Assembly (NCBI GenBank): GCA_017557405.1
Contig: JAFYYV010000007.1
Coordinates: 1 to 53,873, forward strand
Direction: 5' to 3'
Source: Prevotella sp.
Lineage (GTDB): Bacteria > Bacteroidota > Bacteroidia > Bacteroidales > Bacteroidaceae
DNA length: 53,873 nucleotides
The position numbers and the translations under genes are program-made. The notes below the pieces were generated by a model. The model did not search any database, had not been told where the DNA came from, and saw only the letters and a list, made by a program, of their open reading frames with translations. Positions 6,825 to 24,787 of this stretch are shown here, piece by piece (positions within the stretch are counted from its first letter, which is position 1; each line of letters opens with the position of its first letter).

Positions 6825-6825
6825 G

Positions 6826-7025: not shown

Positions 7026-7030
7026 CAATA

Positions 7031-7067: not shown

Positions 7068-7087
7068 TATTCCTTAATGCTGATGCT

Positions 7088-8440
7088 TTATTTCCCTTTT
7101 AATGTTTCCACGATACGTGCCATCTGGTTGGGAATACGTATTTGTTGTGGGCATTTCGGTAAGCATTCCTCACAATCTTGGCATTGATTAGCCCATTTCT
7201 TTTGGTCATCCAAAGCTTTCTCGTAGCCTTCCATGAATTTCTGCTTGCGCTCGGCAAAGTCGGCGGCAGTCTTTTCGGGAAGTGGCAACAGATGTTCGGT
7301 AACAGCCTCGTTGTAATAGGCGAAGTTGCCTGGAATATCTACACCGAAGGGGCAGGGCATACAATATGCGCATGTGGTGCAGGGGATTGTGGGGAAGCCA
7401 GCCATCTGGTCGGCAATCTCTGCCAATAGCTTGTTCTCGGCCTCAGTGCAGATTTCGAGTGGTGAGAATGTCTTCACGTTCTCTTCCAAATGGTCCATGC
7501 GGTTCATTCCACTCAATGTCGTGAGGATGTTCGGATAGGATCCCACCCATCGGAATGCCCAACGAGCAGTGCTGTCATCTGGTCGGACAGCCTTCATCTT
7601 GTCGGTCAACTCTTGTGCCATGCGTCCGAAGGCTCCTCCACGAAGAGGCTCCATCACTACGCATTGCACTCCTGTCTTCTCGCTTTTATTATACAGATAT
7701 TCGGCATCGGCATCCGATCTGCGGCCTCCACGTATGGAGGCGTGGCGCCAATCGAGGAAGTTCATTTGTATCTGGCAGAAGTCCCAATGGTACTCATCCT
7801 GATGGTCGAGCAGCCAGTCGAAGTCGCGCACATCGCCGTGATAGGAGAAACCAAGATGTTTGATACGTCCTGCTTCGCGCTCTTTCAATAAGAAGTCCAA
7901 AATACCATTGTCGAGGAATCGTCCCCTGAGTGAGTCCATGCCGCCACCGATGCCATGTAGCAAGTAATAGTCAATGTGATCGACTTGCAATTTCTCGAAC
8001 GACTGCTCGTACATTCGTTTCGACTCATCGTAGCTCCACAGGCGTCGGTTTTGGTTCGACATCTTCGTGGCAATGAAGTATTTATCTCTCGGATAACGAG
8101 AAAGAGCATTACCCGTAAGCACCTCCGACTGTCCACCCATATACATAGGAGCCGTGTCAAAGTAGTTCACACCGTGCTCAATAGCGTAGTCCACCAATTG
8201 GTTTACTTCTTCTTGATTGTTAGGTAGTCGCATCATGCCGAAGCCTAAGAGTGAGATCTCTTCGCCCGATCCATGTTGCACGCGATAGGTCATGCGGTTG
8301 TTAGCAGTTTTTTTCTTTTTCTTGTCATCAGCCAACACGTTCAGTGGTTCCAGTGCCATTAGGGCCACTGCCGAGCCCGTCCCGACGCCAAGGCGCCGCA
8401 AGAACTCTCGTCGGCTCATGTTTTGTTTTTTCTCGTCCAT
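7088..8440 (-). CDS. Aldo/keto reductase with C-terminal 4Fe-4S ferredoxin domain
   Basis: Predicted oxidoreductase. The start at 8440 (MDEKKQNMSRREFLRR) gives a Tat-type twin-arginine signal followed by a hydrophobic stretch. The longer frame up to 8536 only reads through a palindrome. The aldo/keto reductase barrel shows NYFDTAPMYMGG (Asp, Tyr), FIATKMS (Lys) and YYLLHGIGGG (His). The C-terminal part carries cysteine clusters CTTCAYCMPCPFG and CQDCEECLPKCPQ, which should bind two 4Fe-4S clusters. It lies downstream of two GH43 genes on the same strand, separated by a large hairpin. Its substrate is unknown, and a role in sugar oxidoreduction inside the PUL is inference. Confidence 0.8.
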   Translation of the reverse strand: MDEKKQNMSRREFLRRLGVGTGSAVALMALEPLNVLADDKKKKKTANNRMTYRVQHGSGEEISLLGFGMMRLPNNQEEVNQLVDYAIEHGVNYFDTAPMYMGGQSEVLTGNALSRYPRDKYFIATKMSNQNRRLWSYDESKRMYEQSFEKLQVDHIDYYLLHGIGGGMDSLRGRFLDNGILDFLLKEREAGRIKHLGFSYHGDVRDFDWLLDHQDEYHWDFCQIQMNFLDWRHASIRGGRRSDADAEYLYNKSEKTGVQCVVMEPLRGGAFGRMAQELTDKMKAVRPDDSTARWAFRWVGSYPNILTTLSGMNRMDHLEENVKTFSPLEICTEAENKLLAEIADQMAGFPTIPCTTCAYCMPCPFGVDIPGNFAYYNEAVTEHLLPLPEKTAADFAERKQKFMEGYEKALDDQKKWANQCQDCEECLPKCPQQIRIPNQMARIVETLKGK

Positions 8441-8496
8441 ATAGTTTTTGTTTAAAGTTAAGTTAAGTATTTGTCGTAAAGGTAGATTGTTTAGAG

Positions 8497-8552
8497 AATT
8501 TGCCGCCACCCTGCAACTCGCTGTAGTTGGTTGCATAAGGTGACGGCAAATT
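8497..8552. repeat. Large hairpin between GH43 and reductase genes
   Basis: AATTTGCCGCCACC (8497-8510) pairs with GGTGACGGCAAATT (8539-8552) with one mismatch. An inner TGCAAC/GTTGCA stem lies between. On the minus strand it is not followed by a U-run, so it may be an intercistronic processing or stability hairpin rather than a strong terminator. Confidence 0.8.
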
Positions 8553-8564
8553 GATTATTTCCAA

Positions 8565-10028
8565 TTAATGGTTACGGAAATTCCATTTGGAATTGTCGCT
8601 TCCAAAGTCATATTCTGCGAGAGTAGGAGTGGAGTCGCCAGCTGAATAGAGGCAGTAGTGCTTGTTGATACCTTCCTTGCCGGGAATGACCTTCGGCATG
8701 ATGCGGAATGTACCATCAGTGAGTTGTTCGATACGCCACAACTGTTCGTCAGCACCAGTGAAGGCGGGCACGGTAGTCACCTCTAAATCAGCCGTGGCTG
8801 CCAATGCACGCTCGGTACCGTCGATGGTAATCTTGAAGTATGGACCACCAAGATAGCCCTCGCCCTCTGTAGGCTGAACGTTCCAACGCTGCCAAGGACG
8901 GAACATGTAGTCGCCGATGCGAGCGGGGATGTTACCCTCGGGCCAGCCACCCTTCACCTCGTCCAACGTTTGGTTGGGAACGGGCTGTGGAGGAGCAGCA
9001 TTTGCCTGTGGTCTGCCACCGAATCCACCGAATCCACCAGCACGGGCGACATTCATGCGAACGAAGTCGACAGCCAATTCCAGAGCATAGCCACGGCGCT
9101 CGCTCTCAATCTCGAAGACGCCACCCTTGAATTGTTCGCCACCAACGGGCCAACCATTCTTCCAAAGCAGGGGACGAATGGCCAATGTAGAGCGGCCACC
9201 CATATCGAAGTCAGCCTCCCAGTGGAAAGACATGACCTCTACGCCCTCGTCAATGATAGTACGTCCGAAGTGTCCAGCACCCGTCTTGCGGTCGCCAGCG
9301 GCAATCACCATCTTACCGCCACCATGATACATGTCGCGGCCAACATTGTCAATATACGGGCCTTCTGGGCTCTTGGAACGACCTACAACGATGTTATAGG
9401 TAGAGTTCACACCATCGCAGCAGGTGCCGTGGGTGCCGAGCAGATAGTACCATCCATCGTTGTAGATAAGGTCGGAGGCTTCACAGTCGATAGCGATGTC
9501 CTTCTCCTTGTTGCCACCCTTACGGAAACCAGTAGTGGGGTCGAGCTCGATGAGGCGGATGGTGCCGAAATAGGTGCCATAGCTTACCCACAGACGACCT
9601 GTGGTAGGGTCGAGCATGATACCTGGGTCGATGGCGTCCTGGTCTTCCATACCATCGGAGGAGCATACCTCAACGGCTGTACTCCACTTGAAATCGGGAG
9701 ATTTCGGGTCGAGCGTCTTGTTCCACATCGTCAGGATGCGGCCGCTATGACCACCACCTAAGCCACCACCTGTGGCTCCATAGATGCAAAGATAACGGTC
9801 ACCAATCTTGATCATATCGGGGGCTGCACCGCCACCAGGGCGCTCAGCGCCACTGTGCCAGCTCCAGCCATCTTCGGAGATGAGTCCTCCGCCGCCGGTG
9901 CCGAATGTATAGTACTTGCCTTCGCACTCGGCGATGGTCGAGGGATCGTGTATGAAGGGTTCGCCAACTTGGGCGTTTGCGGTGGTTGCCAAAGCAAGTG
10001 CCGCAAGGATGCTATGTAGTTTTTTCAT
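8565..10028 (-). CDS. GH43 family glycoside hydrolase with C-terminal beta-rich domain
   Basis: Secreted 487-residue protein (signal peptide about 1-20) with the five-bladed GH43 pattern. Seen are IHDPSTI (Asp28, base), DAIDPGIM (Asp134) and CEASDLIY (Glu183, acid). Residues YYLLGTHGTCCDGVNSTYNI resemble the arabinan/arabinofuranosidase branch of the family. A Gly-Phe-Gly/Pro/Ala-Gln linker (about 330-352) joins a C-terminal domain of about 130 residues (ending FGSDNSKWNFRNH) that looks like a ricin-type or accessory binding domain. It starts one base after the upstream GH43 stop, so the two are co-transcribed. Arabinofuranosidase or xylosidase activity cannot be told apart by eye. Confidence 0.82.
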   Translation of the reverse strand: MKKLHSILAALALATTANAQVGEPFIHDPSTIAECEGKYYTFGTGGGGLISEDGWSWHSGAERPGGGAAPDMIKIGDRYLCIYGATGGGLGGGHSGRILTMWNKTLDPKSPDFKWSTAVEVCSSDGMEDQDAIDPGIMLDPTTGRLWVSYGTYFGTIRLIELDPTTGFRKGGNKEKDIAIDCEASDLIYNDGWYYLLGTHGTCCDGVNSTYNIVVGRSKSPEGPYIDNVGRDMYHGGGKMVIAAGDRKTGAGHFGRTIIDEGVEVMSFHWEADFDMGGRSTLAIRPLLWKNGWPVGGEQFKGGVFEIESERRGYALELAVDFVRMNVARAGGFGGFGGRPQANAAPPQPVPNQTLDEVKGGWPEGNIPARIGDYMFRPWQRWNVQPTEGEGYLGGPYFKITIDGTERALAATADLEVTTVPAFTGADEQLWRIEQLTDGTFRIMPKVIPGKEGINKHYCLYSAGDSTPTLAEYDFGSDNSKWNFRNH

Positions 10029-10029
10029 T

Positions 10030-12153
10030 TTATTGTGCTTTGATTGTATAGTTCTTTACTGGGTTACCTTTCTCGTCAAGGAAGCGGACGCAGAAGTCGC
10101 TCATGCCGGGGCCGTTGATGACGGCACCACGCAAGATGTTGCGACCTTTCTTCAGTGTCAGACGGGATGACATGGCGTCGTCCTTTACCATACGGCGGTC
10201 GCCACTGAGCAGCAGAGTCTCTTCACCATTCAGCCACCACATGGAAGCTGAGTTGGAGCCTACAGCCAAGCGTACGTTCTCGATATCTTCGTCACAGTCG
10301 ATGATGGTGACGGCCCAGAAGAGGACGCCATATACTTTTTCTCCCCACTTCTCGGCAAAGCGGAACAGCTTCACATTGAAGTTCTCGCTGTCAAGGGCGT
10401 GCCAGGTAAGGTTCTGCGTGACGGTCTTCACTTCGGGCTGTGCTGGTTGCTGCTGGCCACCGAAACCACGGCCGAAACCTGCAGGAGCCTGTTCCTGCTT
10501 GAACACAGCCTTGACCTTCTGGCCGTTCTTCGGCACGATGGTCTGCTGTCCCTTGAAGTATTCGCGGTTGAAGTGCTCGCGCAAATAGCTGTCGGTAAAT
10601 ACAGTATTACCGCTGTTAGGCTTGTCGATAGGCTCCAAGAGCAACCAACGATGGATGAATCCTTCATCGTCGGGCTTTGCAGATGGAGTGGTGACTGCTG
10701 AGAAGTACTTGGGACGATTCTTGAACTGTACCCAGTCTACGCTGACAGCTCCCTCGCCTTCGTTGGTGATTACCAAGTCGGTGACACCCTTCGGCATGTA
10801 TTCCAATGTAGCAGTTTGAGTGAGCCACTGGTTACGCATGTCGCGGCGCATACGGCCCATCATAGGCATACCGCCTCCAGCACCACCACCTGCAGGTGGT
10901 TCAGGAGGTCTCACTGTCATCTTGATACGAGCAATGACCTTACCCTTGGCGTTTCCTTCACGGATGCAGAACTCAGTATCGTCGCTAGCCTTGGCGTTGA
11001 TAATCAGATAACCATCGGCCATGTTGCTGAAGTCAACATCGGCATATCTGAGCCAACTGCCCTTGGTTGGCAGGGTGGCGCAGTCGCCGCTGAAGGCACG
11101 AGTGGTATCTACATGTTCGGTGGTCACACCTTCTGCAGCCTCGCTGTAGCGGTCAATCTGAATCTTCTCAGTAGCTTGGTTGATACCTACGCCACGCATG
11201 GTCTCCTTCACCTCTTGGATGGTGCCATCTGCATTGAACGCCAGCTTCTCGATGCACACCGAGCGGCGCTTATCGTCCTTCGGCGAGAAGAAATTGGTGT
11301 GGTAGAACAGATACCACTGTCCCTTGTAGTTGATGATACTGTGGTGGTTGGTCCAGCAGCCATTGGGATGTTCGGCCATGATCAGACCTTTGTATTCGTA
11401 TGGTCCCATCGGATTCTTACTCATGGCATATCCGAGGACTTCAGTGTTCTGTCTCACATAAGGATAGGTCAGGTAATAGTTGCCGTTGTACTCGAAAGCG
11501 AACGGACCTTCAGCCTGACGATTGGGCAGACCTTGGAGGCAGTTGACGCCAATCATTTCCATCTCGCGATTACCAAACTTGACGGTTTCCTTTGGGTTGT
11601 CGTCGGCGAGTTCCTTCATGTTCTCTTTCAACTTGGCGCAACGTCCATTGCCCCAGAAGATGTAAGCGTTGCCGTCGGATGCCAGAAGAACGCACGGGTC
11701 AATGCCATTGACGCCCTTGATGGGTTCCGGTTCAGGAATGAACGGCCCCTCTGGATTGTCTGCGATAGCTACACCAACAGCGAAGCCGCCTCTTCCTTCA
11801 GCAGGAGCAGACGGGAAATAGAAATAGTACTTTCCATTCCTGTAGACACAGTCAGGTGCCCACATGGAATAGGAATTAGGTCTCACCCAAGGCACTTTGT
11901 TTTGTGTAACAATCATGCCGTGGTCGGTCCAGTCAGTTAGGTTTTCAGAAGAGAAGACATGATAGTCTTCCATGCAGAACCAGTCCTGACGTTGTCCTTC
12001 AGGAGGAAGGATGTCGTGCGAAGGGTACAAGTACACCTTATTGTTAAATACGCGCGCAGTAGGGTCAGCCGTGAATTGGTCACGAATGACAGGGTTCTGT
12101 GCCATGCCCAGCATTGGGATGAATAGGCAAATACCAATAAGTTTTTGTTTCAT
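10030..12153 (-). CDS. GH43 glycoside hydrolase with CBM6-like and extra C-terminal domain
   Basis: Secreted 707-residue multidomain enzyme (signal peptide about 1-19). The GH43 blade motifs are FTADPTARV (Asp30), GIDPCVLL (Asp152) and AEGPFAFEY (Glu215), and HHSIINYKGQWYLFYH is typical of the family. Residues about 335-485 look like a CBM6-type beta-sandwich, interrupted by a GGGAGGGMPMMGRMRRD stretch. Residues about 500-707 form a further beta-rich domain with a GFGRGFGGQQQPAQP insert. It is the first gene of the minus-strand run and is divergent from susC. Arabinofuranosidase on arabinoxylan is the likely role by family and context. Confidence 0.82.
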   Translation of the reverse strand: MKQKLIGICLFIPMLGMAQNPVIRDQFTADPTARVFNNKVYLYPSHDILPPEGQRQDWFCMEDYHVFSSENLTDWTDHGMIVTQNKVPWVRPNSYSMWAPDCVYRNGKYYFYFPSAPAEGRGGFAVGVAIADNPEGPFIPEPEPIKGVNGIDPCVLLASDGNAYIFWGNGRCAKLKENMKELADDNPKETVKFGNREMEMIGVNCLQGLPNRQAEGPFAFEYNGNYYLTYPYVRQNTEVLGYAMSKNPMGPYEYKGLIMAEHPNGCWTNHHSIINYKGQWYLFYHTNFFSPKDDKRRSVCIEKLAFNADGTIQEVKETMRGVGINQATEKIQIDRYSEAAEGVTTEHVDTTRAFSGDCATLPTKGSWLRYADVDFSNMADGYLIINAKASDDTEFCIREGNAKGKVIARIKMTVRPPEPPAGGGAGGGMPMMGRMRRDMRNQWLTQTATLEYMPKGVTDLVITNEGEGAVSVDWVQFKNRPKYFSAVTTPSAKPDDEGFIHRWLLLEPIDKPNSGNTVFTDSYLREHFNREYFKGQQTIVPKNGQKVKAVFKQEQAPAGFGRGFGGQQQPAQPEVKTVTQNLTWHALDSENFNVKLFRFAEKWGEKVYGVLFWAVTIIDCDEDIENVRLAVGSNSASMWWLNGEETLLLSGDRRMVKDDAMSSRLTLKKGRNILRGAVINGPGMSDFCVRFLDEKGNPVKNYTIKAQ

Positions 12154-12442: not shown

Positions 12443-15400
12443 ATGTGGAATTTTAAATTACTACAAAAGCCATTGGCTTTATTGTTCCTGCTCTGTTTGT
12501 TCCCAATGGGAGCTCTGGCTCAGGGCCTCGTAAAAGGAACGGTAAACGATGAAGCTGGTGAACCGATCATCGGTGCTACAGTGAAAGTGGATGGCACATC
12601 TGCAGGTACCATTACCGATTTCAATGGTAACTTCAGTGTCCAGGCCGCTTCTAATGCCACATTGAGCATTTCCTACGTGGGTTATGTTCCCCAGCAGGTA
12701 AATGTGGGTGGCAGAAGCAACATCGCCATTACCTTGGTAGAGGACAACACAACGTTGAACGACGTGGTTGTCATCGGTTATGGTACGATGAAGAAGAAAT
12801 TGGTGACCGGTGCCACTGTTCAGGTGAAAGGTGATGAAATTGCCAAGCTGAACACCACCAACGCCCTTGAGGCTATGCAGTCGAGCTCTCCTGGTGTACA
12901 GATCACCCAGAGTTCTTCACAGCCTGGTAAGAGTTACAATGTTTACATCCGTGGTAAGGGTACTATCGGTGATAATACCCCTCTCTATGTGATTGACGGT
13001 GTAGCTGGTGGTAACCTCGATGGCATTAACCCGAACGACATCGAGAGCATCGACGTGCTGAAGGATGCTGCTTCGGCTGCCATTTATGGTGCCCGTGCTG
13101 CAAACGGCGTTATCCTGGTTACTACTAAGCAGGGTAAGGCTGGTAAGGTTGAACTCAGCTACAATGGTGCTATCGGTTGGTCAAACGTTTACAAGCGTCC
13201 ACAACTTCTCAATGCTCAGCAGTACATGACCATTTTTGATGAGTACAACTTCAACTCTAATGGTGCTAAGATTGATTGGGCTTCTTATGTTCCACAGGAC
13301 ATTCTCAACAAGGTTGCTAACGGTTGGGAAGGAACTGACTGGTGGGATGTGTTCACCAACAAGAATGCTGTGCAGAACAACCATTCTGTAACCTTGACTG
13401 GTGGTACTGATCGTTCTAAGTTCGCCATGTCCTACACCTATACTGGTAACGAAGGTATCATGGGTGCTGATCAGGCATCATTCTACAAGCGTCACACCAT
13501 TCGTGTCAACAGCGACCACGTGCTCTTGAAGGCAAAGGACTTTGATGCCATTACCATCGGTGAGAACATCTCTATCGGTTATAACAAGAGCCACGACCTT
13601 GCTGAGGATGGTATGTATTGGAGCTATATCCACAGTTTGCTCCAGACTGTTCCCCTCGTGCCACAGTATGCAGACAATGGTGATATCTATAATTATCAGG
13701 ATTACTATGGTAATGTGACTTATGGTCAGGGTTGGAATCCTTCTATGTTCTACAACCCATGGGAGAACCTCAGTAAGGGTGGTTGGAACTCTATGGCAGA
13801 GAGCCGCAATATCAATGCTAGCGCTACAGCTTTTGCTGTCATCCAGCCTATCAAGGGTCTGAGATTCCGTTCTCAGTTCAACTATAACTGGAATGCTGGT
13901 GGATACCGTAACTATTCAGAACCACGTGCTCCGGGTGAAGGTACAGCCATCGCGAAAACATATGGTGTAAGCCAGAACGCTTGGTTGAGTTCTAATTGGT
14001 CTATTGAGAATACGCTTACTTATGATCTTCCTATTATTTCTGGTCATAAGATCAGCGCCATGGTAGGTCAGAGCTACCAGAGCACTGCATGGAGCTTTAA
14101 TGTCGGTGGAAACAACAGTGTCGCTTGGGGCGAGCAGCTCGCAACGCTGAAGGGTTGGGATTCTGCATATCTGGATAACATCAAACTTGCAGATGTTACT
14201 GTAGCTGGTTTGTCTGGTTATCCCAATGACGAAGAGTATCTTGCTTCTTGGTTCGGTCGTGTGACTTGGGACTGGAATGAAACCTATATGGCTACTGTCA
14301 CCATGCGTTATGACGGTTCAAGTATCTTCGCCGACGGTCACCGTTGGGGTTGGTTCCCATCTGTATCTGCAGGTTGGGTAGTTTCCAACGAGCCTTTCAT
14401 GGCAAGCACTAAGAGCTGGATGGACTTCTTGAAACTCCGTGCATCTTGGGGTCAGAACGGTAACAACCGTATTACCAAGTACCAGTATCTTGCTACAATT
14501 GCTCTTTCGGGTAAATATAACGACAGTGGCTACAAGTTTGGTTCTGACTTGGCTACTTCTACTGCAGGTATCCCCAATACAGGTGCTTACGCTAACATCG
14601 TGCCTAATCCCGACCTTACTTGGGAGACCTCTGAGCAGCTCGACCTTGGTTTCGATGCTCGTTTCCTCAACAGTCGTTTGGGCTTGACGTTCGACTGGTA
14701 TAAGAAGACCACAAAGGATTGGCTCGTCACTGGTCCGCAGATTGGTATTATGGGTACCAACCCAGCTTACATCAATGGTGGTGACGTCCAGAATACTGGT
14801 ATTGAGCTCGCTCTCACTTGGAACGACCGTATTGGCAAGGACTTTAGCTACAATGTAGGCGTTAACCTTGCTACCAACAAGAATGAGGTAACCCGTATCG
14901 CCAACGAGAACCACTATATTGCTGGTGCAGGTAATGTCATCTCACAGGGTACAGACTATGTCTCTCGTGCTGAGGAAGGCCATCCCATTGGTTACTTCTA
15001 CGGTATGTCATATAGCGGTATCTGGCAGAATCAGGCACAGATTGACGCTGCACGCTTGGCTGGTAAGGCTGTCCTTGACGACGCTAAGCCTGGTGACTGC
15101 ATCTGGGACGACTGGAATGGTGATGGTGTGATTGTTGGTAAGGGCGAAGGTGCTGGTACCGACAAGCATGAAATCGGTAATCCTAATCCCGATGTGATGT
15201 TGGGTATCAACCTCGGTCTGAATTATAAGGGCTTTGACTTCGCTGTAAACGGTGCTGGTGCATTTGGTATGCAGGTCATGCGTTCTTACCGTTCATTCGG
15301 TGATGATCCCGATGAGAACTACGACACCTCTATCTTGAACCGTTGGCATGGTGAGGGAACCTCAAACACAATGCCGCGTATTTCAAATAATGGTCACCCG

Positions 15401-15682
15401 AACACCATTTGGGTATCTCAGCGTTATGTGGAGGATGCTGACTACTTCAAGATCAAGACCGTAACTCTTGGTTACGACTTCAAGCGTATCTGGAAGACTA
15501 GTCCGTTCCAGCAGCTCCGCTTCTATGTTCAGGTTCAGAACCTCTACACCTTCACTGGTTACACCGGTCTCGATCCTGAGGTTGGATCAACAGGTGGTGA
15601 TAGAAACTGGGCATCCGGTATCGACCTTGGTCTTTATCCGCCAGCTCGTACTTTCTTGGTTGGTGCAAGCATTAAATTCTAA
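12443..15682 (+). CDS. SusC/RagA family TonB-linked outer membrane transporter
   Basis: TonB-dependent outer membrane transporter of 1,079 residues with a signal peptide (ending about residue 26, MGALAQ). A carboxypeptidase-regulatory-like domain follows (about 27-100: GTVNDEAGEPIIGATV, GTITDFNGNFSV). The plug domain (about 110-230) carries PLYVIDG, ESIDVLKDAASAAIYGARAANGVILVTTK, both classic SusC signatures. The remainder is the 22-strand barrel ending in a short hydrophobic-aromatic strand (FLVGASIKF). With SusD it imports oligosaccharides, here probably (arabino)xylo-oligosaccharides by context. It is 20 bases from susD. It is the anchor gene that defines the locus as a PUL. Confidence 0.95.
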   Translation: MWNFKLLQKPLALLFLLCLFPMGALAQGLVKGTVNDEAGEPIIGATVKVDGTSAGTITDFNGNFSVQAASNATLSISYVGYVPQQVNVGGRSNIAITLVEDNTTLNDVVVIGYGTMKKKLVTGATVQVKGDEIAKLNTTNALEAMQSSSPGVQITQSSSQPGKSYNVYIRGKGTIGDNTPLYVIDGVAGGNLDGINPNDIESIDVLKDAASAAIYGARAANGVILVTTKQGKAGKVELSYNGAIGWSNVYKRPQLLNAQQYMTIFDEYNFNSNGAKIDWASYVPQDILNKVANGWEGTDWWDVFTNKNAVQNNHSVTLTGGTDRSKFAMSYTYTGNEGIMGADQASFYKRHTIRVNSDHVLLKAKDFDAITIGENISIGYNKSHDLAEDGMYWSYIHSLLQTVPLVPQYADNGDIYNYQDYYGNVTYGQGWNPSMFYNPWENLSKGGWNSMAESRNINASATAFAVIQPIKGLRFRSQFNYNWNAGGYRNYSEPRAPGEGTAIAKTYGVSQNAWLSSNWSIENTLTYDLPIISGHKISAMVGQSYQSTAWSFNVGGNNSVAWGEQLATLKGWDSAYLDNIKLADVTVAGLSGYPNDEEYLASWFGRVTWDWNETYMATVTMRYDGSSIFADGHRWGWFPSVSAGWVVSNEPFMASTKSWMDFLKLRASWGQNGNNRITKYQYLATIALSGKYNDSGYKFGSDLATSTAGIPNTGAYANIVPNPDLTWETSEQLDLGFDARFLNSRLGLTFDWYKKTTKDWLVTGPQIGIMGTNPAYINGGDVQNTGIELALTWNDRIGKDFSYNVGVNLATNKNEVTRIANENHYIAGAGNVISQGTDYVSRAEEGHPIGYFYGMSYSGIWQNQAQIDAARLAGKAVLDDAKPGDCIWDDWNGDGVIVGKGEGAGTDKHEIGNPNPDVMLGINLGLNYKGFDFAVNGAGAFGMQVMRSYRSFGDDPDENYDTSILNRWHGEGTSNTMPRISNNGHPNTIWVSQRYVEDADYFKIKTVTLGYDFKRIWKTSPFQQLRFYVQVQNLYTFTGYTGLDPEVGSTGGDRNWASGIDLGLYPPARTFLVGASIKF

Positions 15683-15702: not shown

Positions 15703-17628
15703 ATGAAGAAATATATTTTATCATCGTTAGCTGTTCTTTCTGCAGCAACCTTGTTTACATCCTGTAACGACATGCTGGATACTGATCCGCGTGTGACGGA
15801 GATGACCTCGGCTACATTCCCAGGCAAGCCTGCAGATGTCGAGGCGTTGAATGCAGCTACCTACAGTATCATGAGTACGTTGGGTGGCGGAGATAATAGT
15901 GATTGTTTGAATAACATTTTCTTCTGGTGGAGTTGTATGTCAGACGACTGCTATGGTAGTGGCGGCCTGCAAGACTATATGCCTAAATCAATGCATCATT
16001 TCACAATGTCGAATGCCAATCAGTATGAATATGACTGGATTCTTCTCTATGGTGGTGTTGCACGTGCAAACAACCAGATTGAAACCATCGACAATGTGCC
16101 TTGGACCGATGCTGAAAAGGCTCAGCGCAATCAGCTCCTCGGTGAGGCTTTCTTCATGCGTGGCCTCTACACCATGTGGCTCACCCAGATGTATGGTGAC
16201 ATTCCTTTGGTCACTTCTACTCTTATTACTGATGAATCGTATCAGCAGGTTAGCGCCGAGGATGTCATCTTCCCGCAGATTATCGCTGACTTCGTTTCTG
16301 CTAAGACTCTCATGACGACCAATAGAGCCAATGGTTCAGGTCATGCTGACAAGTACAGTGCCGAAGCATTCATGGCACGTGCATACATGTTCTGGGCAGG
16401 CTTCTACAAGGGAGTTGGTGAACTTGCTACTGGTTCTGCTCCTGCCATTGAGTTCAAGAACCGCAACGGCGAGGCTATCGAACAGGAGGGCTTAAACGTG
16501 TCTTCTATTTCCAAGGACGACATCGTCAATGGTTTGAAGGACATCATTAACAATGGTGGCTACAAGCTCTGCGAGGACTTCCGCTCACTTTGGCAGTATT
16601 CCAACAGCTTCCTTTGGGATGAGGCACACGATGATGCAGGTCATGCTTATCCATTCATTGCTGACATGAAGCGTGAGAACTGCTTCGACCAGCCTGGTAT
16701 GGGTAACGGTAACACCGAGGAACTCTTCCAGATTCAGTTCATGAATGCCTCCGGTTGGAACATCGGTGGTACATATTGCAACCCGCGTATGTATTCTAAC
16801 TACCTCTCTTGCTTCTGGGGTCTTCGTAATGGTGCCTCCAACCAGAATGGTGACCGTAATCTGACTTATCCGTTCAACCAGGGTTGGGGTCAGGGAACTC
16901 CTTCGTGCAACCTCTGGGATGATTGGACAGAAGCTGAGACTAAAGGTGGTTATACTGACATCCGTAAACTCGGTTCTATGATTGACCTCGACAACGAGCT
17001 TTCGGGTTATACTTATGAGAAGGACGACTGTGAGGAGTCTGGCTATTCTGTCAAGAAGTACGCCGATGTGAACCTTGACGCTTGCGGAGCTAACAACGAT
17101 ACTTGGTGGACTCAGTGTGAGGGCTATACCGCTCCAGGTTCTCTTGGCAACAGTATGCAGGGTGACCACTTCGAGGATTTCTACCTGATGCGTTATGCTG
17201 ACGTTCTTCTGATGATGACCGAGCTTACTGGTGATGCCCAGTACATGAACCAGGTTCAGAAGCGTGCTGGTGTTCCTCAGACTCCTTACTCTTTGAAAGC
17301 CGTCCAAGACGAGCGTCGTTGGGAGTTTGCATTTGAGGGCCTGCGTTTCAATGACATGCGTCGTTGGACCGGTAAGGATTGTAAGAACAGCGAATATGCT
17401 CCTAAGGCTTTGCAGGCACAATCTGGCAAACAGGTTGTCTGCCTTGGCCAAAAGGGTGCCAAGCGTTCTCTGCAACACATGACCTGTTCTTGGACTGAGC
17501 GTTACAAGGCTACTAATGGATTCTTGCCTAAGCCTCAGAACCAGATTTCTCTACACAATGGTGGATTGGAGCAGAACCCAGGTTGGGACACTGCAGACCC
17601 CAAGACACAATATAAAGCACTTTATTAA
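15703..17628 (+). CDS. SusD/RagB family glycan-binding lipoprotein
   Basis: Surface lipoprotein of 641 residues. The lipobox is LFTSC (Cys21) and the following sequence NDMLDTDPRVTEM is a typical SusD start. TPR-rich helices include GEAFFMRGLYTMWLTQMYGDIPL (about residues 148-170), and the C-terminal RRWEFAFEGLRFNDMRRW motif is a SusD/RagB signature. SusD proteins cap the SusC pore and bind the glycan. The gene follows susC by 20 bases and precedes a third lipoprotein by 21 bases, so the three should be one transcript. Confidence 0.95.
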   Translation: MKKYILSSLAVLSAATLFTSCNDMLDTDPRVTEMTSATFPGKPADVEALNAATYSIMSTLGGGDNSDCLNNIFFWWSCMSDDCYGSGGLQDYMPKSMHHFTMSNANQYEYDWILLYGGVARANNQIETIDNVPWTDAEKAQRNQLLGEAFFMRGLYTMWLTQMYGDIPLVTSTLITDESYQQVSAEDVIFPQIIADFVSAKTLMTTNRANGSGHADKYSAEAFMARAYMFWAGFYKGVGELATGSAPAIEFKNRNGEAIEQEGLNVSSISKDDIVNGLKDIINNGGYKLCEDFRSLWQYSNSFLWDEAHDDAGHAYPFIADMKRENCFDQPGMGNGNTEELFQIQFMNASGWNIGGTYCNPRMYSNYLSCFWGLRNGASNQNGDRNLTYPFNQGWGQGTPSCNLWDDWTEAETKGGYTDIRKLGSMIDLDNELSGYTYEKDDCEESGYSVKKYADVNLDACGANNDTWWTQCEGYTAPGSLGNSMQGDHFEDFYLMRYADVLLMMTELTGDAQYMNQVQKRAGVPQTPYSLKAVQDERRWEFAFEGLRFNDMRRWTGKDCKNSEYAPKALQAQSGKQVVCLGQKGAKRSLQHMTCSWTERYKATNGFLPKPQNQISLHNGGLEQNPGWDTADPKTQYKALY

Positions 17629-17649: not shown

Positions 17650-18396
17650 ATGAAAAAGATATTATTTTTGTTTTTTGCCGCAGCATGTGTGCTAATTGCT
17701 TGTGATCCTGTTTCTGAGGATATCAGCAATGCCGGTCACATCACTCTTGACGAGCTCAAGGCGAAGACTACTGTCTCTGTTGACAAGGCAGCCGATGGCC
17801 AGAACGGCAACGTCATTTCCTGTGAGACTTTGGCTCCAGTTAATGCGAAGTGGAATATTGGTGGCAAGGAATTCGTCGGTAATTTTGCCAAGAAGAAGAT
17901 GAAGAAAGGTGATTACACCGTCCTTCTGACTGCTATTTGCGCTGATGGTACCGAGCTGACAGCAGAATATCCTGTTTCTTGCCAGGTAATTACCGACGAG
18001 CTTCAGAAGTTCTATATCTATGGTGAAGATCCTACAACGCAACCGCCATTCCAGCCCGGTGCTTGGAATGCAGCAGCCATGCGTTTCAGTGATAGCGAGG
18101 GTCAGAATTTCCCATATCTTACTGATGAGATTTATTGGGGCTTTAAGACTCTTATCATAGATGTTTCTGATGCCACTGACGATTTGGACGTAAGAGTAAT
18201 GTCTGGTTGGTGGGACAACTTCAATGCTGATGGCAGTGAAACACATGTGCACTGGAATTCAGGTTTGAATGAGCTTCAACTCACTGAGGACATTGCTAAA
18301 ATTTGTGCAAAAGGTAATGATGGTAAAAACCACGACCTTCAGTTCATGGTCATTAATGGTTCATGTACCGTCAATTCCGTTTACTATGAGGAATAA
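17650..18396 (+). CDS. PUL surface lipoprotein, SusE/SusF-position
   Basis: Lipoprotein of 248 residues (signal peptide with Cys18, LIACDP). The sequence is beta-rich, with an Ig-like N-terminal part (about 30-115) and a C-terminal half rich in Trp/Tyr/Phe (MSGWWDNFNADGSETHVHWNSG), as expected for a glycan-binding module. No firm family is recognised. Its place immediately after susC-susD matches the SusE/SusF or surface glycan-binding protein position, so a binding role is inferred from context. A strong terminator follows 30 bases after the stop. Confidence 0.7.
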   Translation: MKKILFLFFAAACVLIACDPVSEDISNAGHITLDELKAKTTVSVDKAADGQNGNVISCETLAPVNAKWNIGGKEFVGNFAKKKMKKGDYTVLLTAICADGTELTAEYPVSCQVITDELQKFYIYGEDPTTQPPFQPGAWNAAAMRFSDSEGQNFPYLTDEIYWGFKTLIIDVSDATDDLDVRVMSGWWDNFNADGSETHVHWNSGLNELQLTEDIAKICAKGNDGKNHDLQFMVINGSCTVNSVYYEE

Positions 18397-18425: not shown

Positions 18426-18455
18426 GGCTGACTCAATCAAATGAGTCAGCCTTTT
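18426..18455 (+). terminator. Terminator of the susCD operon
   Basis: GGCTGACTCA (18426-18435) and TGAGTCAGCC (18442-18451) form a perfect ten-base stem with a six-base loop, followed by TTTT. The arm contains an ATG (18441) that would extend the next ORF, but that start is rejected in favour of 18468. Confidence 0.9.
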
Positions 18456-18467
18456 ATAGCAAAAAAA

Positions 18468-20276
18468 ATGATAAAGAAAAGCAAACTATCCGGAGTTATC
18501 CTCTATGGAAGTCTGTTGGCTTTCATCTTATTTACCGCATACATATTACACATCAATCAAGAGGTACTCTATACGGCACACGACCGTTCTGCATTCGTCT
18601 TTGGAGCGCCCTTCTACCATACGCTCCTGTCAAAACCTTTCGGCTTGATGCGGTATGTGGGTGCTTGGTTCACACAGTTCTTCTATCATCCTGCCTTAGG
18701 TGCTGGTGTACTGGTGGCAATTTGGATACTGATATTCTATGTGGGTGCCAAAGCATTCCGGTTGCAGGGCAGTGCCACGGCACTGATGCTCCTGCCGATA
18801 GCCTGTCTGCTTACGTCAGTTGTCGATTTGGGGTATTGGATCTATATTCTCCCCTTTAGAGGCTATTGGTTCTCGCAGTCCGTCGGCTATCTTGTCATGT
18901 TGCTGCTGTTGTGGGCAGCACGTTGCACCCCACGAAAATGGCATCTTGTTTGGTATCTTTTGGGTATTTGTATCTATCCTGTGTTGGGGTGGTTTGCCTT
19001 GCTTTTCGTTTTATGTCTTGCGCTTATAGATAAACCTACGTGGCGTGAGTATCTAGGCTTTGTTCTACTTCTCTTTACCGCCAGTATTTGGCATACTCAG
19101 TTTTATACGCACCTGAGATCCGACGATGTGGTGATGGCTGGCTTTCCTCGTTTCAAGACTATACTCGACAATGTTGACCATCTTTCCATCCCATTCTGGA
19201 TACTTGGTGCTGTCTCTGTGCTTATTCCACTGTGTGGTAGGAGTCTTATGAAAGGCTTCTCTAACCGATGGGCGAAGTGTGGCGTTGCAATCGTTCCAGT
19301 CTTGTGTACCATTGCAGGCGTCATTTTCACCTCGATGCTCATGTTCCACGATAGGAACTACATTGACGAGATGCGCATGGTGCGCCATGCCGAGGACGAC
19401 AATTGGAAGGAGATCCTCCGTCTGGCGGAGGAGAATCAGAAACCTACCCGCACGATAGTATTTCTCAAGAATATTGCCCTGATGAACGAAGGAGGCCTGT
19501 TTGACCGTTCGTTCAAATTGAGTAACGACGCCGTCAGTATTAACAATCCCGATTCGCTCCATATCACCCTTTTGGAGATTGCTTCACCGTTGGTCTATTA
19601 CAACTATGGTATGATGAACGAGGCTATTCGACTGAATTTCGAAAATGGCATACAATATGGTTTCTCGCCCTTCTTATTGAAGACACTTTCCCGCTGTGCC
19701 CTGGCTGTGGGAGATGAAAAACTGGTGGAACGCTATACTACCATATTACATCATCATCCATTTTACAAGAACTGGCAGCCAGCCCCGGTCACAGCAAAGA
19801 TCAAGGAACTGCAGAGAGCCTATCCCGACGAACTTACTGGCATTGAGAATAGCGACAGTTATATTGTCAATACCATCAGCCTTTGGTCTGATACCATCAG
19901 CAAGGTGGCTTCAGAGCAGGCTATGTTCTATTCCATGATACGCTGCGACTCCCGTCGCTTCTGGGCATCGCTGCGCAACTATGTGAAGTCACACATGGAC
20001 GAGGAGTTCCCCGTGCATGCACAAGAGGCCTATATACTGTATATGGACAAGGCTCCAGAAGAGAAACGTATTATGCTCCCCATCAGTCAGACAGTCTATG
20101 ACCGCTATAAAAAGTTCTGGGAAACTCTTGAAGGTCAAGCAAAGCCTGGTATGACAATCGAGCAGATCGGTGAGAATACACGTAAGGAATTCGGGGACAC
20201 TTACTGGTGGTACAACCTCTTCGGAAGAAAATTCTTTATCGTAGAGCGCAATATTGGTCATGAAGTTCAATCGTAA
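18468..20276 (+). CDS. Polytopic membrane protein with helical C-terminal domain (DUF6057-like), copy 1
   Basis: Membrane protein of 602 residues. The start at 18468 (MIKKSKLSG) is chosen because the earlier ATG lies in the terminator stem. About eight to ten hydrophobic segments fill residues 8-300. The C-terminal half (about 310-600) is soluble and helical, with short repeats such as EAIRLNFENGIQYGFSPFLLKTLSRCALAVGDEKLVERY that look TPR-like. It resembles what I recall as DUF6057, and no function is known to me. It begins a four-gene operon of two membrane-protein/CxxCH-lipoprotein pairs; the next start is seven bases after its stop. The C-terminal domain could dock the partner lipoprotein, but that is inference. 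Confidence 0.75.
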   Translation: MIKKSKLSGVILYGSLLAFILFTAYILHINQEVLYTAHDRSAFVFGAPFYHTLLSKPFGLMRYVGAWFTQFFYHPALGAGVLVAIWILIFYVGAKAFRLQGSATALMLLPIACLLTSVVDLGYWIYILPFRGYWFSQSVGYLVMLLLLWAARCTPRKWHLVWYLLGICIYPVLGWFALLFVLCLALIDKPTWREYLGFVLLLFTASIWHTQFYTHLRSDDVVMAGFPRFKTILDNVDHLSIPFWILGAVSVLIPLCGRSLMKGFSNRWAKCGVAIVPVLCTIAGVIFTSMLMFHDRNYIDEMRMVRHAEDDNWKEILRLAEENQKPTRTIVFLKNIALMNEGGLFDRSFKLSNDAVSINNPDSLHITLLEIASPLVYYNYGMMNEAIRLNFENGIQYGFSPFLLKTLSRCALAVGDEKLVERYTTILHHHPFYKNWQPAPVTAKIKELQRAYPDELTGIENSDSYIVNTISLWSDTISKVASEQAMFYSMIRCDSRRFWASLRNYVKSHMDEEFPVHAQEAYILYMDKAPEEKRIMLPISQTVYDRYKKFWETLEGQAKPGMTIEQIGENTRKEFGDTYWWYNLFGRKFFIVERNIGHEVQS

Positions 20277-20283
20277 GAAAACA

Positions 20284-21792
20284 ATGAAAAGATATATTCT
20301 TAATGGCATTTGCTTCCTAGGAGCTTTGTTGCTCTTGTCGTGTGGGCATCATCCCTCTGTACCCTCTGATGCCTCTGCGTCCTCAGAGCTACCACCTATC
20401 TTCCCCGATTATTGCGATGTCACTGTGCCTTGCAACATTGCACCACTCAACTTCATGCTGCCAACTGACCAGTACGAAGAGTGTGTGGCACGAATCACTA
20501 CTCCTGATGGTCAGCAACAGACCTACGGCAATGGCGTGAAGGTGCAGATGCCCGAGGAGGAATGGCACACTATACTCGATGCCTCCAAGGGTAAAAGTAT
20601 CAAGGTAGAGGTATGGGGCAAGAAAGAAGGTAAATGGCAGTCGTTCAAGCCGTTTGAGATACATGTAGCCAATGAGCCTATTGACGAATATCTGTCGTAC
20701 CGACTCATTGAGCCGTCGTATGTCGCATGGAGTTTTATGGAGATTGCCCAGCGCAACCTCACCACTTTTGAAGAGACGCAGATTTTCAACAACGAGATTA
20801 CCAGTAATGATTGGAAAAAGGGGCAGTGCGTCAACTGCCACAGCTACCAGAACTACAAGACCGATAACATGCTCTTCCATGTGCGTCTCTCTAATGGTGG
20901 TACCGTTATTGTGAACGATGGAAAGATTTCGAAAGTGGATTTGAAGCGCGACTATACCATCTCTGGCGGCGTCTATCCGGCATGGCATCCTACCGCCAAG
21001 CTGATAGCTTTCTCGACCAACAGAACACGTCAGGTATTCCATACGCTGAATCCCAACAAGATTGAGGTCTACGATGAGGCGAGCGACATGATCCTCTATG
21101 ACGTGGAGACCGACTCGGTGAGCATCGTGAGCAACGATTCCACGCTGTTGGAAGTGTATCCTACTTGGTCGCCCGATGGCAAATATCTCTACTACTGCAA
21201 GTCTGTCCCGCTTCCTGAAGAGATGCGCGACAAGGATATCAGAACTACCTATCCGAAAATACAGTACAATCTCGTTCGACGTTCGTTCGACGTGGCTACG
21301 CATGTCTTTGGCGATGAGGAATTGGTCTATGATGCTGCATCGGACGATAAGAGCGTCACGTTGCCACGCATCAGTCCCGATGGTCGCTATCTGCTATTTG
21401 CTTTGGGACAGTATGGCTGTTTCCATAGCAGGCATCATGATGCCGACATAGTTTGTATCCCGATGGACAAGTACACAGGAACTGCCCTCACTTGGGAAAC
21501 TTCTTCGCCTGTTGATCTCACACTCCTTAACAGCAAGGACTATTCCGACAGCTACCCCTCATGGTCGAGCAACGGCCATTGGATTATGCTTGCCAGTCGC
21601 CGCGACGATGACAATTTCAGCCGTGTCTATTTTGCTTATTTCAACAACGGGAAAGTAGAAAAAGCTTTTCTCATGCCGCAGGAAGACCCCGAACTGCATA
21701 TCAGTCTCCTGAAGAGCTACAACCGTCCGGAGTTCATGGTTGAACCTGTCAAAATCAGCGTAGAAGAATTCAGCCGGGTATTTGACAAATAG
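20284..21792 (+). CDS. CxxCH-containing PD40/TolB-like lipoprotein, copy 1
   Basis: Lipoprotein of 502 residues. The start at 20284 gives a clean signal peptide with lipobox LLLSC (Cys20). An N-terminal beta-rich domain (about 40-140, with VTVPCNIAPLNFML) precedes a single haem-type motif CVNCHS (Cys182, Cys185, His186). WD40-like/PD40 repeats then follow (YPAWHPTAKLIAFSTN, YPTWSPDGKYLYYCKS, LPRISPDGRYLLFALG, YPSWSSNGHWIMLASRR), as in TolB-type propellers. A c-type haem is possible, but one CxxCH does not prove it. The gene at 23261 is a clear paralogue with the same layout. It is tightly packed between two related membrane-protein genes. Confidence 0.78.
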   Translation: MKRYILNGICFLGALLLLSCGHHPSVPSDASASSELPPIFPDYCDVTVPCNIAPLNFMLPTDQYEECVARITTPDGQQQTYGNGVKVQMPEEEWHTILDASKGKSIKVEVWGKKEGKWQSFKPFEIHVANEPIDEYLSYRLIEPSYVAWSFMEIAQRNLTTFEETQIFNNEITSNDWKKGQCVNCHSYQNYKTDNMLFHVRLSNGGTVIVNDGKISKVDLKRDYTISGGVYPAWHPTAKLIAFSTNRTRQVFHTLNPNKIEVYDEASDMILYDVETDSVSIVSNDSTLLEVYPTWSPDGKYLYYCKSVPLPEEMRDKDIRTTYPKIQYNLVRRSFDVATHVFGDEELVYDAASDDKSVTLPRISPDGRYLLFALGQYGCFHSRHHDADIVCIPMDKYTGTALTWETSSPVDLTLLNSKDYSDSYPSWSSNGHWIMLASRRDDDNFSRVYFAYFNNGKVEKAFLMPQEDPELHISLLKSYNRPEFMVEPVKISVEEFSRVFDK

Positions 21793-21797
21793 ACTAG

Positions 21798-23225
21798 ATG
21801 AAGCAATTTCGTATTTTCACTTTTAGCTCTTCACTATTCACTGGCGAAGCGCTGTGCACGCTCCTTTTCGGTGTGGCGGTCTTTTTGTTTTTCGGATTGG
21901 CCTATCCGCATCATCTGCATTATCAGGAGCAATTCCAGCTTTTCCTTTTCGACAGTAACTATGTGTGGGAGGTTGTTAAACTACCAGGTGGCGTAGCCGA
22001 CCTGCTGGGACGCTTCTGTACTCAGTTTTTCCTGTATGCTTGGGTGGGGGCTTTTATCATTGCGGTTCTACTCTCGGCTGTGCAACTGCTGACGCTCAGC
22101 ATGTTCAATGTTCAACGTTCAACGTTCAATGTTCAATGGTTCTATGCTCTGAGCTTTGTGCCTTCGTTCCTACTTTGGCTTTTCCTGCTCGACGAGAATG
22201 CGTTGTTGGGCGGAGTCTGGGGCGTTCTGCTCACACAGATTGCTCTTTGGGCGATTCTCCAGTTGCCAGACGGATGGGTGCGCCGCATCCTGGTGATTGT
22301 CGCCTTTGTGGCACTCTATTGGATAGCCTGGGGTGGTAGCCATTACTACCGTATCCCGAACACCTTCCCCACGCTGCTCTATGCGGCATGGTTCTCTGCC
22401 ATCATCATCCCGCTTGTGATGTGGCTTGTTGTTAGAAGTAAGAAGTCAGAGAATGCTCAGAAACAGAACAATTCCCTCTTACCTCTTATCTCTTTTGCCT
22501 TGGTTTCAGTCGTTTTTGGAAGTATCATTTGGAAAAACGCCAATTTCAAAGCAGAAAAGGTGATGCAATATGACTTCATGGCCCGCCATCAGCAATGGAA
22601 TCGCATACTTGCCACCGTCAGCACTGAGAAACCAAACAACCAAATCGGTGTGACGGTACAGAATCTTGCATTGGCGATGCAAGGCCAGCTCGTCAACCAC
22701 CTATTCGATTATAACCAGAACGGACTCCTTGGGCTCTTGCCTGATGTTCAGAGCGATGCGACCAGTCCATTGCCTACAGCAGAGGCGTTCTATCAGTTGG
22801 GTATGATTAATGTAGCCCAGCGAACTGTGTTTGAGGCTCAGGAAGCGATTCTTGACTTCCAGAAGAGTGCCCGATGCTATAAACGATTGGCACAGACCAA
22901 CCTGATCAACGGCGACTACGAGGTGGCTCGCAAATATCTCTCAGCGCTACAAAAGACCCTCTTCTATCGTGAATGGGCCAATGAAACTCTACCGTTGTTG
23001 GGAAATGAGAAGGCAATTGCTCAGCATCCCGAATACGGACGTCTGCGCCAGTCAGCCTACAAGGAAGACTTTTATTTCAGCGACCATGTGACCCCCGAGA
23101 TGCTCGAAAGCCTCTACGACCGTAACAAAGATAATCGCTTAGCCTATCAATATTTGTTGGCTTATTATATGCTGACAGGCGATCGCGAAGGCTACACCAA
23201 ACGATTATTGATCATTGAACATTGA
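21798..23225 (+). CDS. Polytopic membrane protein with TPR-like C-terminal domain (DUF6057-like), copy 2
   Basis: Membrane protein of 475 residues with the same plan as the gene at 18468. It has about seven hydrophobic segments in residues 18-245, then a soluble helical C-terminal region (about 260-475) with TPR-like pairs (AEAFYQLGMINVAQRTVFEAQEAILDF, RLAQTNLINGDYEVARKYL). Residues MFNVQRSTFNVQ (about 102-113) are encoded by an in-frame ATTGAACATTGAA-type repeat, and residues around 212-235 by TTAC/CTC simple repeats, so repeats have invaded the coding region between membrane helices. Its 3' end also runs into the same repeat (LLIIEH). It starts five bases after the upstream stop. Confidence 0.75.
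   Translation: MKQFRIFTFSSSLFTGEALCTLLFGVAVFLFFGLAYPHHLHYQEQFQLFLFDSNYVWEVVKLPGGVADLLGRFCTQFFLYAWVGAFIIAVLLSAVQLLTLSMFNVQRSTFNVQWFYALSFVPSFLLWLFLLDENALLGGVWGVLLTQIALWAILQLPDGWVRRILVIVAFVALYWIAWGGSHYYRIPNTFPTLLYAAWFSAIIIPLVMWLVVRSKKSENAQKQNNSLLPLISFALVSVVFGSIIWKNANFKAEKVMQYDFMARHQQWNRILATVSTEKPNNQIGVTVQNLALAMQGQLVNHLFDYNQNGLLGLLPDVQSDATSPLPTAEAFYQLGMINVAQRTVFEAQEAILDFQKSARCYKRLAQTNLINGDYEVARKYLSALQKTLFYREWANETLPLLGNEKAIAQHPEYGRLRQSAYKEDFYFSDHVTPEMLESLYDRNKDNRLAYQYLLAYYMLTGDREGYTKRLLIIEH
22101..22139. repeat. ATTGAACATTGAA-type repeat inside a coding region
   Basis: Five head-to-tail units of the form GTTCAA(T/C). This is the reverse complement of the intergenic runs at 23214-23254 and 47581-47625, and here it encodes residues FNVQRSTFNVQ in frame. 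Confidence 0.85.
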
Positions 23226-23254
23226 AGATTGAACGTTGAACATTGAACATTGAT
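23211..23254. repeat. ATTGAACATTGAA-type repeat at a gene boundary
   Basis: Tandem (A/C)TTGAA units span the stop of the membrane-protein gene and the gap before the next lipoprotein gene. Confidence 0.85.
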
Positions 23255-23260
23255 TATGCA

Positions 23261-24787
23261 ATGAAACGGATTTTATATACACTTCTCACCTCTTACCTCT
23301 TACTTCTTACCTCTTCCCTCTTCGTCGCTTGCGACGAAAAGGTTAGCGATGCAAAGCAGGAGGTCGAGCTGCCACAGATCTATCCCGACTACGTTGGGGT
23401 CACCATACCCGTAAATATCGCTCCTCTCAACTTCTGCATGGCTGATGAGGAAATGTTGCGTATTGATGCCGTTATTACGGATAGACACGGGAACAATCTG
23501 CACAGCCAAGGAGATGAAGCGGTTGACTTCGATATTGATGATTGGCGTTCGTTGCTCAGTCAGAATCGTGGAGACTCGCTCAGCATTACCGTTTCCGCCA
23601 AGTTTGCCGATGGTTGGCACACCTATCGTCCTTTCTCGATTTACGTCAGCCCAGACAGCATCGACTATGGCATCTGCTACCGTTTGATTGAGCCAGGCTA
23701 CGAGGTGTGGAGCAAGATGGGCATTTACGAACGCGATCTCTCCTCGTTTGATGAGCGTGCGTTGATTGAGAACACACAGTTCGAGGGTTGTGTCAACTGT
23801 CATAGCTTCAATCGCGGCAATCCTGCCGATATGAGCCTGCATATCCGTGGTCCGCATGGCGCCACGCTGCTACGGCATAGCCCCTCCTCGTCCCTCCCCA
23901 GTAGGGAGGGTGAACTCACGGCTTACAATACCAAGACCGATCAGACGATCGGCTTTTGTGTCTATCCCTACTGGCACCCATCGGGCCGTTATATTGCTTA
24001 TTCAACCAACTCAACGAGTCAGTTGTTCCATAGTGCCGACAGCAATCGGGTGGAGGTCTTCGATACAGCCTCCGACCTTCAGGTCTATGACGTCGAGAAA
24101 AACGAATTGTTGCTTACGCCCCTTCTCAAGCAGGATTCGATTTATGAAACCTATCCCGTTTTCTCGGCCGATGGTCGTTCTCTCTATTTCTGTGCCGCCC
24201 GTGCACTCCCAGAGGGAAGCCACCAACTCGATTCCATCCACTATAATCTCTACCGCATTGATTTCGATCCCGCAACGGGTAAGTTCGGCAGCAGTATAGA
24301 CATCATTGTCGATGCTCAGGCTCAGCACAAATCGATATCCTTCCCTCGTCCTTCCTACGACGGGCGTTTCCTTTGCTACACACTTTCCGACTACGGACAG
24401 TTCAGCATCTGGCATCATGAAGCCGATCTCTATCTGCTCGACCTCGCTACAGGACAGAGCCGCCCCATGGATGAGGCAAATTCTGAAGATACGGAATCGT
24501 TCCACAACTGGAGTACCAACTCGCGTTGGCTCGTGTTGAGTTCACGTCGCGATGATGGTCTTTTTACGCGTCCCTATTTCTGTCACATTGATGAAAAGGG
24601 TGTTGTCAGCAAGGCGTTTATGCTGCCGCAGCGGAATCCGCGACGTTTCTATCGCGATCGTTTTCTTTCCTTCAATGTGCCCGATTTCATTATTAGTCCC
24701 ACTCGTTTTGATGGCCATCAAGCCAGTCGAATCATCAACGATGAGTCTCGCAAGAATATGGGTGTGCGCAAAGACAACACTCTTTGA
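23261..24787 (+). CDS. CxxCH-containing PD40/TolB-like lipoprotein, copy 2
   Basis: Paralogue of the lipoprotein at 20284. The start at 23261 is preferred over 23243 because it removes repeat-derived residues. The signal peptide ends at LFVAC (Cys24). Shared landmarks are PVNIAPLNF, CYRLIEPGYEVWS, the haem-type motif GCVNCHS (Cys177, Cys180, His181), YPYWHPSGRYIAYSTNSTSQLFHSADSNRVEVFD, and FHNWSTNSRWLVLSSRRDDGLFTRPYF. Residues RHSPSSSLPSREGE (about 205-218) are absent from the first copy and are encoded by a GC-rich palindromic repeat. Much of the signal peptide (LLTSYLLLLTSSL) is encoded by a CTCTTAC simple repeat. It is the last gene of the operon, and a terminator follows. Confidence 0.78.
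   Translation: MKRILYTLLTSYLLLLTSSLFVACDEKVSDAKQEVELPQIYPDYVGVTIPVNIAPLNFCMADEEMLRIDAVITDRHGNNLHSQGDEAVDFDIDDWRSLLSQNRGDSLSITVSAKFADGWHTYRPFSIYVSPDSIDYGICYRLIEPGYEVWSKMGIYERDLSSFDERALIENTQFEGCVNCHSFNRGNPADMSLHIRGPHGATLLRHSPSSSLPSREGELTAYNTKTDQTIGFCVYPYWHPSGRYIAYSTNSTSQLFHSADSNRVEVFDTASDLQVYDVEKNELLLTPLLKQDSIYETYPVFSADGRSLYFCAARALPEGSHQLDSIHYNLYRIDFDPATGKFGSSIDIIVDAQAQHKSISFPRPSYDGRFLCYTLSDYGQFSIWHHEADLYLLDLATGQSRPMDEANSEDTESFHNWSTNSRWLVLSSRRDDGLFTRPYFCHIDEKGVVSKAFMLPQRNPRRFYRDRFLSFNVPDFIISPTRFDGHQASRIINDESRKNMGVRKDNTL
23281..23322. repeat. CTCTTAC/TTACTTC simple repeat encoding a signal peptide
   Basis: Degenerate units CTCTTAC, CTCTTAC, TTCTTAC, CTCTTCC encode the hydrophobic core of the lipoprotein signal. 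Similar units occur at 22434-22450 (reverse complement) and 22473-22496 in the preceding gene. Confidence 0.75.
23881..23915. repeat. GC-rich palindromic repeat inside lipoprotein copy 2
   Basis: CCCTCC...GGGAGGG inverted arms. Related sequences lie at 32594-32626, 49858-49890, 49926-49964 and 50773-50801. Here the element is in frame and lengthens the protein by about eleven residues relative to its paralogue. Confidence 0.65.

Follow-up and report, generated by a model that had tools for sequence, protein, structure and literature searches.

The stretch of Prevotella sp. DNA analysed here (contig JAFYYV010000007.1, 53,873 nucleotides; the window) contains four tightly spaced plus-strand genes at 18468-24787, which we call M1, L1, M2 and L2 and which are separated by gaps of 5-35 bases. 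They are arranged as two consecutive pairs, each composed of a gene for a DUF6057 (PF19529) membrane protein and a following gene for a CxxCH/PD40 lipoprotein:

18468..20276, plus strand: M1, DUF6057 membrane protein of 602 amino acids (aa) counted from the ATG at 18468; predicted GT-C-like transmembrane part and alpha-solenoid from about residue 296
20284..21792, plus strand: L1, lipoprotein with an N-terminal IAPLNF domain, a predicted six-bladed TolB-like propeller and CVNCH at residues 182-186
21798..23225, plus strand: M2, DUF6057 membrane protein (PF19529, 445.9 bits) of 475 aa, short at the C terminus
23261..24787, plus strand: L2, PD40 lipoprotein, L1 paralogue with CVNCH (36% identity to L1 over 488 aa)

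A preliminary description, made from the sequence alone, interpreted these packed, alternating genes as a paired envelope system without a described function. The alternation is not due to chance, since the genome of origin (3.56 Mb, 54 contigs) has five such pairs. Each of its five family lipoproteins (a weak match of 11.9 bits was excluded) is encoded immediately downstream of a DUF6057 gene. The genome also has a short DUF6057 gene that stands alone.

Pairing of the two genes

The best 80 of at least 593 matching stretches were analysed as loci; the family is thus larger than the set described here. The titles of 78 of these 80 loci name Bacteroidales groups. Lipoprotein frames (111 in total) were taken from 78 loci, as L066 and L071, for which an antisense frame had been chosen by the open reading frame selection, were left out. 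One lipoprotein shorter than 440 aa was excluded from the pairing analysis. For 98 of the remaining 110 lipoproteins, a same-strand, full-length DUF6057 gene (430-760 aa) ended at most 150 nucleotides (nt) before the lipoprotein start. The sequence distances of the partners were correlated (r=0.93; 103 pairs including the five from the Prevotella genome), and this value was reached in none of 2000 partner shufflings restricted to within a locus or genome.

Co-occurrence, which the preliminary description had proposed to check, was complete at the order level: among 99 Bacteroidales genomes, sampled at roughly one for each family, a full lipoprotein (>300 bits) and an above-cut-off DUF6057 protein were found in the identical 12. 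Lipoprotein matches of 97 bits in G070 and of 84.5 bits (a second match) in G062, as well as a below-cut-off DUF6057 match in G082, were excluded from this count. In a denser sample of 121 genomes from the family of the Prevotella sp., the lipoprotein occurred in 67, all of which also had a DUF6057 match; DUF6057 matches, many of them short and weak, were obtained in 106 of the 121. A pair broken in most genomes, which had been named beforehand as an argument against the module, is thus not seen from the side of the lipoprotein, whereas DUF6057 also occurs alone. The lipoprotein and its DUF6057 partner are a unit. Two records whose titles name Roseburia sp. and Clostridium sp. (L055 and L099) bear the Bacteroidales-type module as well and are likely mislabelled or contaminated bins.

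The lipoprotein and its CxxCH motif

The alignment of L1 with L2 spans 488 residues (E 6e-106), nearly their whole length as first noticed, and the IAPLNF, YRLIEP, CVNCH, YPxWHP and SRRDD regions are common to both. Each contains a lipobox and one CxxCH, and PD40 was the sole Pfam family above the cut-off in both. The motif C[IVM]NCH was present in all 111 close homologues. In a wider alignment, CxxCH was kept in 99 of 100 rows; nine of these rows were chosen via a motif-requiring filter, and all lipoprotein matches at those loci had the motif regardless. Homologues lacking CxxCH, the other objection foreseen at the outset, were limited to one member, in which C182, C185, H186 and H384 are lost and H199 and H235 are retained.

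The confident AlphaFold2 model of the lipoprotein is a six-bladed TolB-like propeller with the CxxCH on a strand of the first blade. A lipobox was recognised in 83 of the 110 lipoproteins. Only 9 of these 83 have two or more acidic residues after the lipid-carrying cysteine, compared with 29/30 SusD and 27/27 SusE-position proteins, which suggests that the lipoprotein is periplasmic. Distant PD40 propeller proteins with CGNCHS were encountered at L131:1-2259 and L132:668-2416; PD40 and TPR types were the only Pfam families above the cut-off in them.

The DUF6057 membrane protein

The membrane proteins had been described as alike in topology. Both are DUF6057 members far above the curated cut-off of 29.8 bits (248.2 bits for M1), but their direct likeness is weak (blastp, 23% over 194 residues, E 2e-9), so that M1 and M2 are far more diverged than L1 and L2; in M2, the best PF19529 match stops at profile position 490 of 569. 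The confident AlphaFold2 model of M1 consists of a membrane domain and an alpha-solenoid, which would lie in the periplasm. The best, although weak, structural matches of the membrane domain were GT-C enzymes, and a Foldseek search with M1 gave no matches at E<=0.001. A GT-C-type conserved acid was not found in the first external loop (an acid was present in 58/86 at position 32 and in 48/86 at position 39).

Solo DUF6057 genes behind a YhcH-like gene (recognised by eye) and a branching-type gene were observed in different genera: in the Prevotella genome (C13:9039-10187, L019), at L103:4622-6436 and at L120:8864-10681. The branching-type enzyme in L103 is an alpha-amylase/CBM48 protein according to Pfam. 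In genomes, this solo branch with a branching-type enzyme was found in the Prevotella genome, G221 and G180, the enzyme being assigned by Pfam in G221 only.

Association with glycan and peptide utilization loci

The following features of the window lie upstream of M1:

12443..15682, plus strand: SusC-like TonB-dependent transporter, conserved upstream neighbour (Pfam, synteny)
15703..17628, plus strand: SusD-like lipoprotein, conserved upstream neighbour (Pfam SusD_RagB, synteny)
17650..18396, plus strand: SusE-position lipoprotein ('CDP' type, our own label), conserved upstream neighbour (synteny); no Pfam family at E<=0.01
18426..18457, plus strand: hairpin and T run in the gap that separates the SusE-position gene from M1; may be an attenuator or a terminator (sequence)
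294..12153, no single strand: remaining xylan-type locus with GH8, glucuronoyl esterase, GH3, feruloyl esterase (BD-FAE), aldo/keto reductase with a 4Fe-4S domain and two GH43 (Pfam)

The preliminary description set the module apart from the xylan utilization locus by a strong terminator. This separation did not hold among the relatives. We grouped 35 loci (L020-L053 and L086) as window-type; four of them end at contig ends and L049 has no SusC/SusD. The first DUF6057 gene was preceded by SusC and SusD genes in 30 of the 35, which is 30 of the 31 with enough sequence, and 29 of these 30 also had the SusE-position lipoprotein. The hairpin with its T run is real, even though it is absent from the output of a generic terminator scan. 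In 18 of 30 cases (29 loci and the window), such a structure recurred within 150 nt 3' of the SusE-position gene. It thus looks like a part of the usual layout and plausibly lowers expression behind SusC/SusD. An additional in-frame ATG for M1, at 18441, lies within the hairpin.

In L115 and L116 (genus g10 of the same family, likely Bacteroides), the pair is part of a mannan-type locus, in which SusC-SusD precede it and GH26 and GH130 genes lie next to it; in L116 the locus also includes an epimerase and a sugar symporter. GH26 follows the pair in L118 (genus g104). An S9 peptidase was found in 24 of the best 80 loci, a group distinct from the window type. A SusD or carbohydrate-active enzyme (CAZyme) marker was near 14 of 19 pair regions from nine other genomes and near 5 of 21 control stretches (p=0.004); SusD was near 7 of the 19. 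When four regions overlapping the sources of the queries were removed, the marker was found in 10 of 15 pair regions (p=0.017). The control set includes G187, a planned pair region which held no pair, and two stretches overlapping by about 1 kb. The two-protein envelope module is widespread and tied to glycan (and peptide) utilization. A protein with a Ribonuc_L-PSP (Rid-type) C-terminal domain adjoins the pair at L109:2052-3167, L115:13178-14293 and L110:201-1223, and a DUF4369 protein is present in L110.

Association with a cytochrome c assembly gene

In the Prevotella genome, a PF01578 (CcsA-type) gene lies next to a ResB-like one (the latter recognised by eye), and NrfA is present as well. 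Among the 121 genomes of the family, PF01578 was found above the cut-off in 65 of the 67 genomes with the lipoprotein and in 39 of the 54 others (Fisher p=1.1e-4; permutation within genera, P=0.0003), P values which are indicative only because the genomes are related; a below-cut-off match in G125 was scored as absent. All 31 genomes with an NrfA match had PF01578, as expected of a true client. Where NrfA was absent, PF01578 was present in 52 of 54 lipoprotein genomes and 21 of 36 others. The presence of haem in the lipoprotein is thus supported indirectly, by the association with the assembly gene. G221, which has a full-length DUF6057 gene and no PF01578, was considered as an exception and rejected, since its DUF6057 gene belongs to the solo branch beside the branching-type enzyme; no lipoprotein was detected within 11.5 kb around this gene or genome-wide at E<=1e-60.

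Discussion

We tentatively propose that each pair forms a two-protein envelope accessory complex beside glycan utilization loci or, in one group, peptide utilization loci, and regard this as a reasonable possibility rather than a probability. DUF6057 would span the inner membrane with its GT-C-like part and extend its alpha-solenoid into the periplasm, and the lipoprotein, retained in the periplasm, would present its TolB-like propeller. The solenoid may dock the propeller; such docking is supported by the distant propeller protein L131, which joins CGNCHS and C-terminal TPRs in one chain. The CcsA-type assembly system would most likely attach a c-type haem to the CxxCH of the first blade, and the complex might handle or sense imported oligomers downstream of SusC/SusD or perform a redox step on them. 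In its most extended form, this proposal would amount to a new redox or sensing complex added by anaerobic gut Bacteroidales to hemicellulose, mannan and peptide utilization systems: the TolB-like propeller would have a haem c or metal centre within its innermost strand and would be docked on a membrane protein that is derived from GT-C enzymes and has its solenoid in the periplasm. We consider this somewhat unlikely.

Several observations weigh against the proposal. Most of them concern the haem. The PF01578 association was not significant in the 99 Bacteroidales genomes (12/12 vs 68/87, p=0.12), and the denser family sample was used for this reason. The draft genomes G116 and G130, both of one genus, keep CxxCH lipoproteins and have no PF01578 match; with the CcsA of a congener as the query, the best hit was at E 0.1, in one of the two. 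The cytochrome c assembly gene serves other proteins too, since it is also present in the 39 genomes that have PF01578 and no lipoprotein. Moreover, the CxxCH lies on an extended strand (181-188) in the AlphaFold2 model, which is haem-free, whereas the CxxCH of haem c is usually found in a turn. The early suggestion of haem or metal binding is thus strengthened by the assembly gene and weakened by the two draft genomes and the extended motif, and haem is retained here conditionally. As for the complex and its role, DUF6057 also occurs in the solo branch next to a branching-type enzyme, where no lipoprotein gene adjoins it; a SusD or CAZyme marker was missing from the surroundings of 5 of the 19 pair regions, and 4 of the 19 regions overlap query sources.

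The same two-protein complex could function without haem if CxxCH and the conserved histidines H199, H235 and H384 bound a metal ion close to the axis of the propeller, or if the cysteines formed a disulphide. The loss of H384 together with C182, C185 and H186 in the motif-less member, which kept the other two histidines, is compatible with either a metal or a haem. The assembly-gene association weighs against this explanation, as does the sequence C[IVM]NCH, which is the classical motif for haem c; we consider the explanation unlikely. If the CxxCH were structural, the pair might be a TolB-like tether or scaffold which keeps the utilization machinery organised by connecting the inner membrane to the periplasmic lipoprotein. 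The near-absolute conservation of CxxCH and the scores of L1 and L2 against the NCBIfam TolB equivalog (27.8 and 25.4 bits, cut-off 343) make it distinctly improbable. Finally, DUF6057 might be an active GT-C-type transferase acting on a periplasmic glycan or protein, with the lipoprotein as its substrate receptor. DUF6057 differs from the GT-C glycosyltransferases ArnT and STT3 in lacking their conserved catalytic acid in the first loop, and we regard this activity as very unlikely.

Several known systems come closest to the module. A six-bladed propeller, as predicted for the lipoprotein, is also the fold of TolB of the Tol-Pal system, from which the module differs in that its propeller is a lipoprotein with CxxCH and is paired with DUF6057, the neighbours being DUF6057 and genes of the utilization locus. 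The hydrazine synthase alpha subunit (5c2v_A), whose haems lie outside the propeller, was absent from the PDB sequence matches at E<=1. The galactomannan locus of Bacteroides ovatus (bacova_02087-97) includes SusC, SusD, a SusE-position protein, GH26, a phosphorylase, an isomerase and a symporter, according to the excerpts of the article available (PMC5217682), and shares SusC, SusD, the SusE-position protein, GH26 and sugar-handling genes with the mannan-type locus of the pair. The roles named there for 02088-02097, with GH36 for 02091 taken from an abstract, include no such pair. In the open-licence literature, the term 'DUF6057' was not found, and neither was a description of the pair in the texts covered, which were mostly titles and the openings of abstracts; term searches gave no match in PMC11107044 and one unrelated passage in PMC8631079. 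The view that no function had been described for this paired system agrees with these results as well as with the pairing, and the module looks like an undescribed device.

Glycan utilization loci are commonly accounted for by SusC/SusD, enzymes and binding proteins, in addition to a regulator and a sugar transporter of the inner membrane. The conserved two-protein envelope module which common gut and rumen bacteria have beside these loci, with its near-invariant CxxCH, is not explained by this scheme. If haem is bound to it, fibre use in anaerobes would be linked to redox chemistry or to the supply of haem.

Other features of the window

The heptamer TTGAACA forms arrays at 22103-22136, 23208-23255 and 47581-47621, and near matches to it are more frequent in the window than expected (21 vs 2.3). 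The first array lies inside M2, the second spans the end of M2 before L2, so that M2 terminates within it, and the third is located elsewhere. The repeat at the M2 end is a possible cause of the shortness of M2, but second DUF6057 copies in window-type loci are likewise shorter than 500 aa in 16 of 29 cases. Within the xylan-type locus, the aldo/keto reductase with the 4Fe-4S domain is encoded at 7088-8536 on the minus strand. The 3' side of L2 (24800-25490) is a region of about 690 bases without a clear gene, with an A+T content of 67%, in which TCAAAGCATA is present twice.
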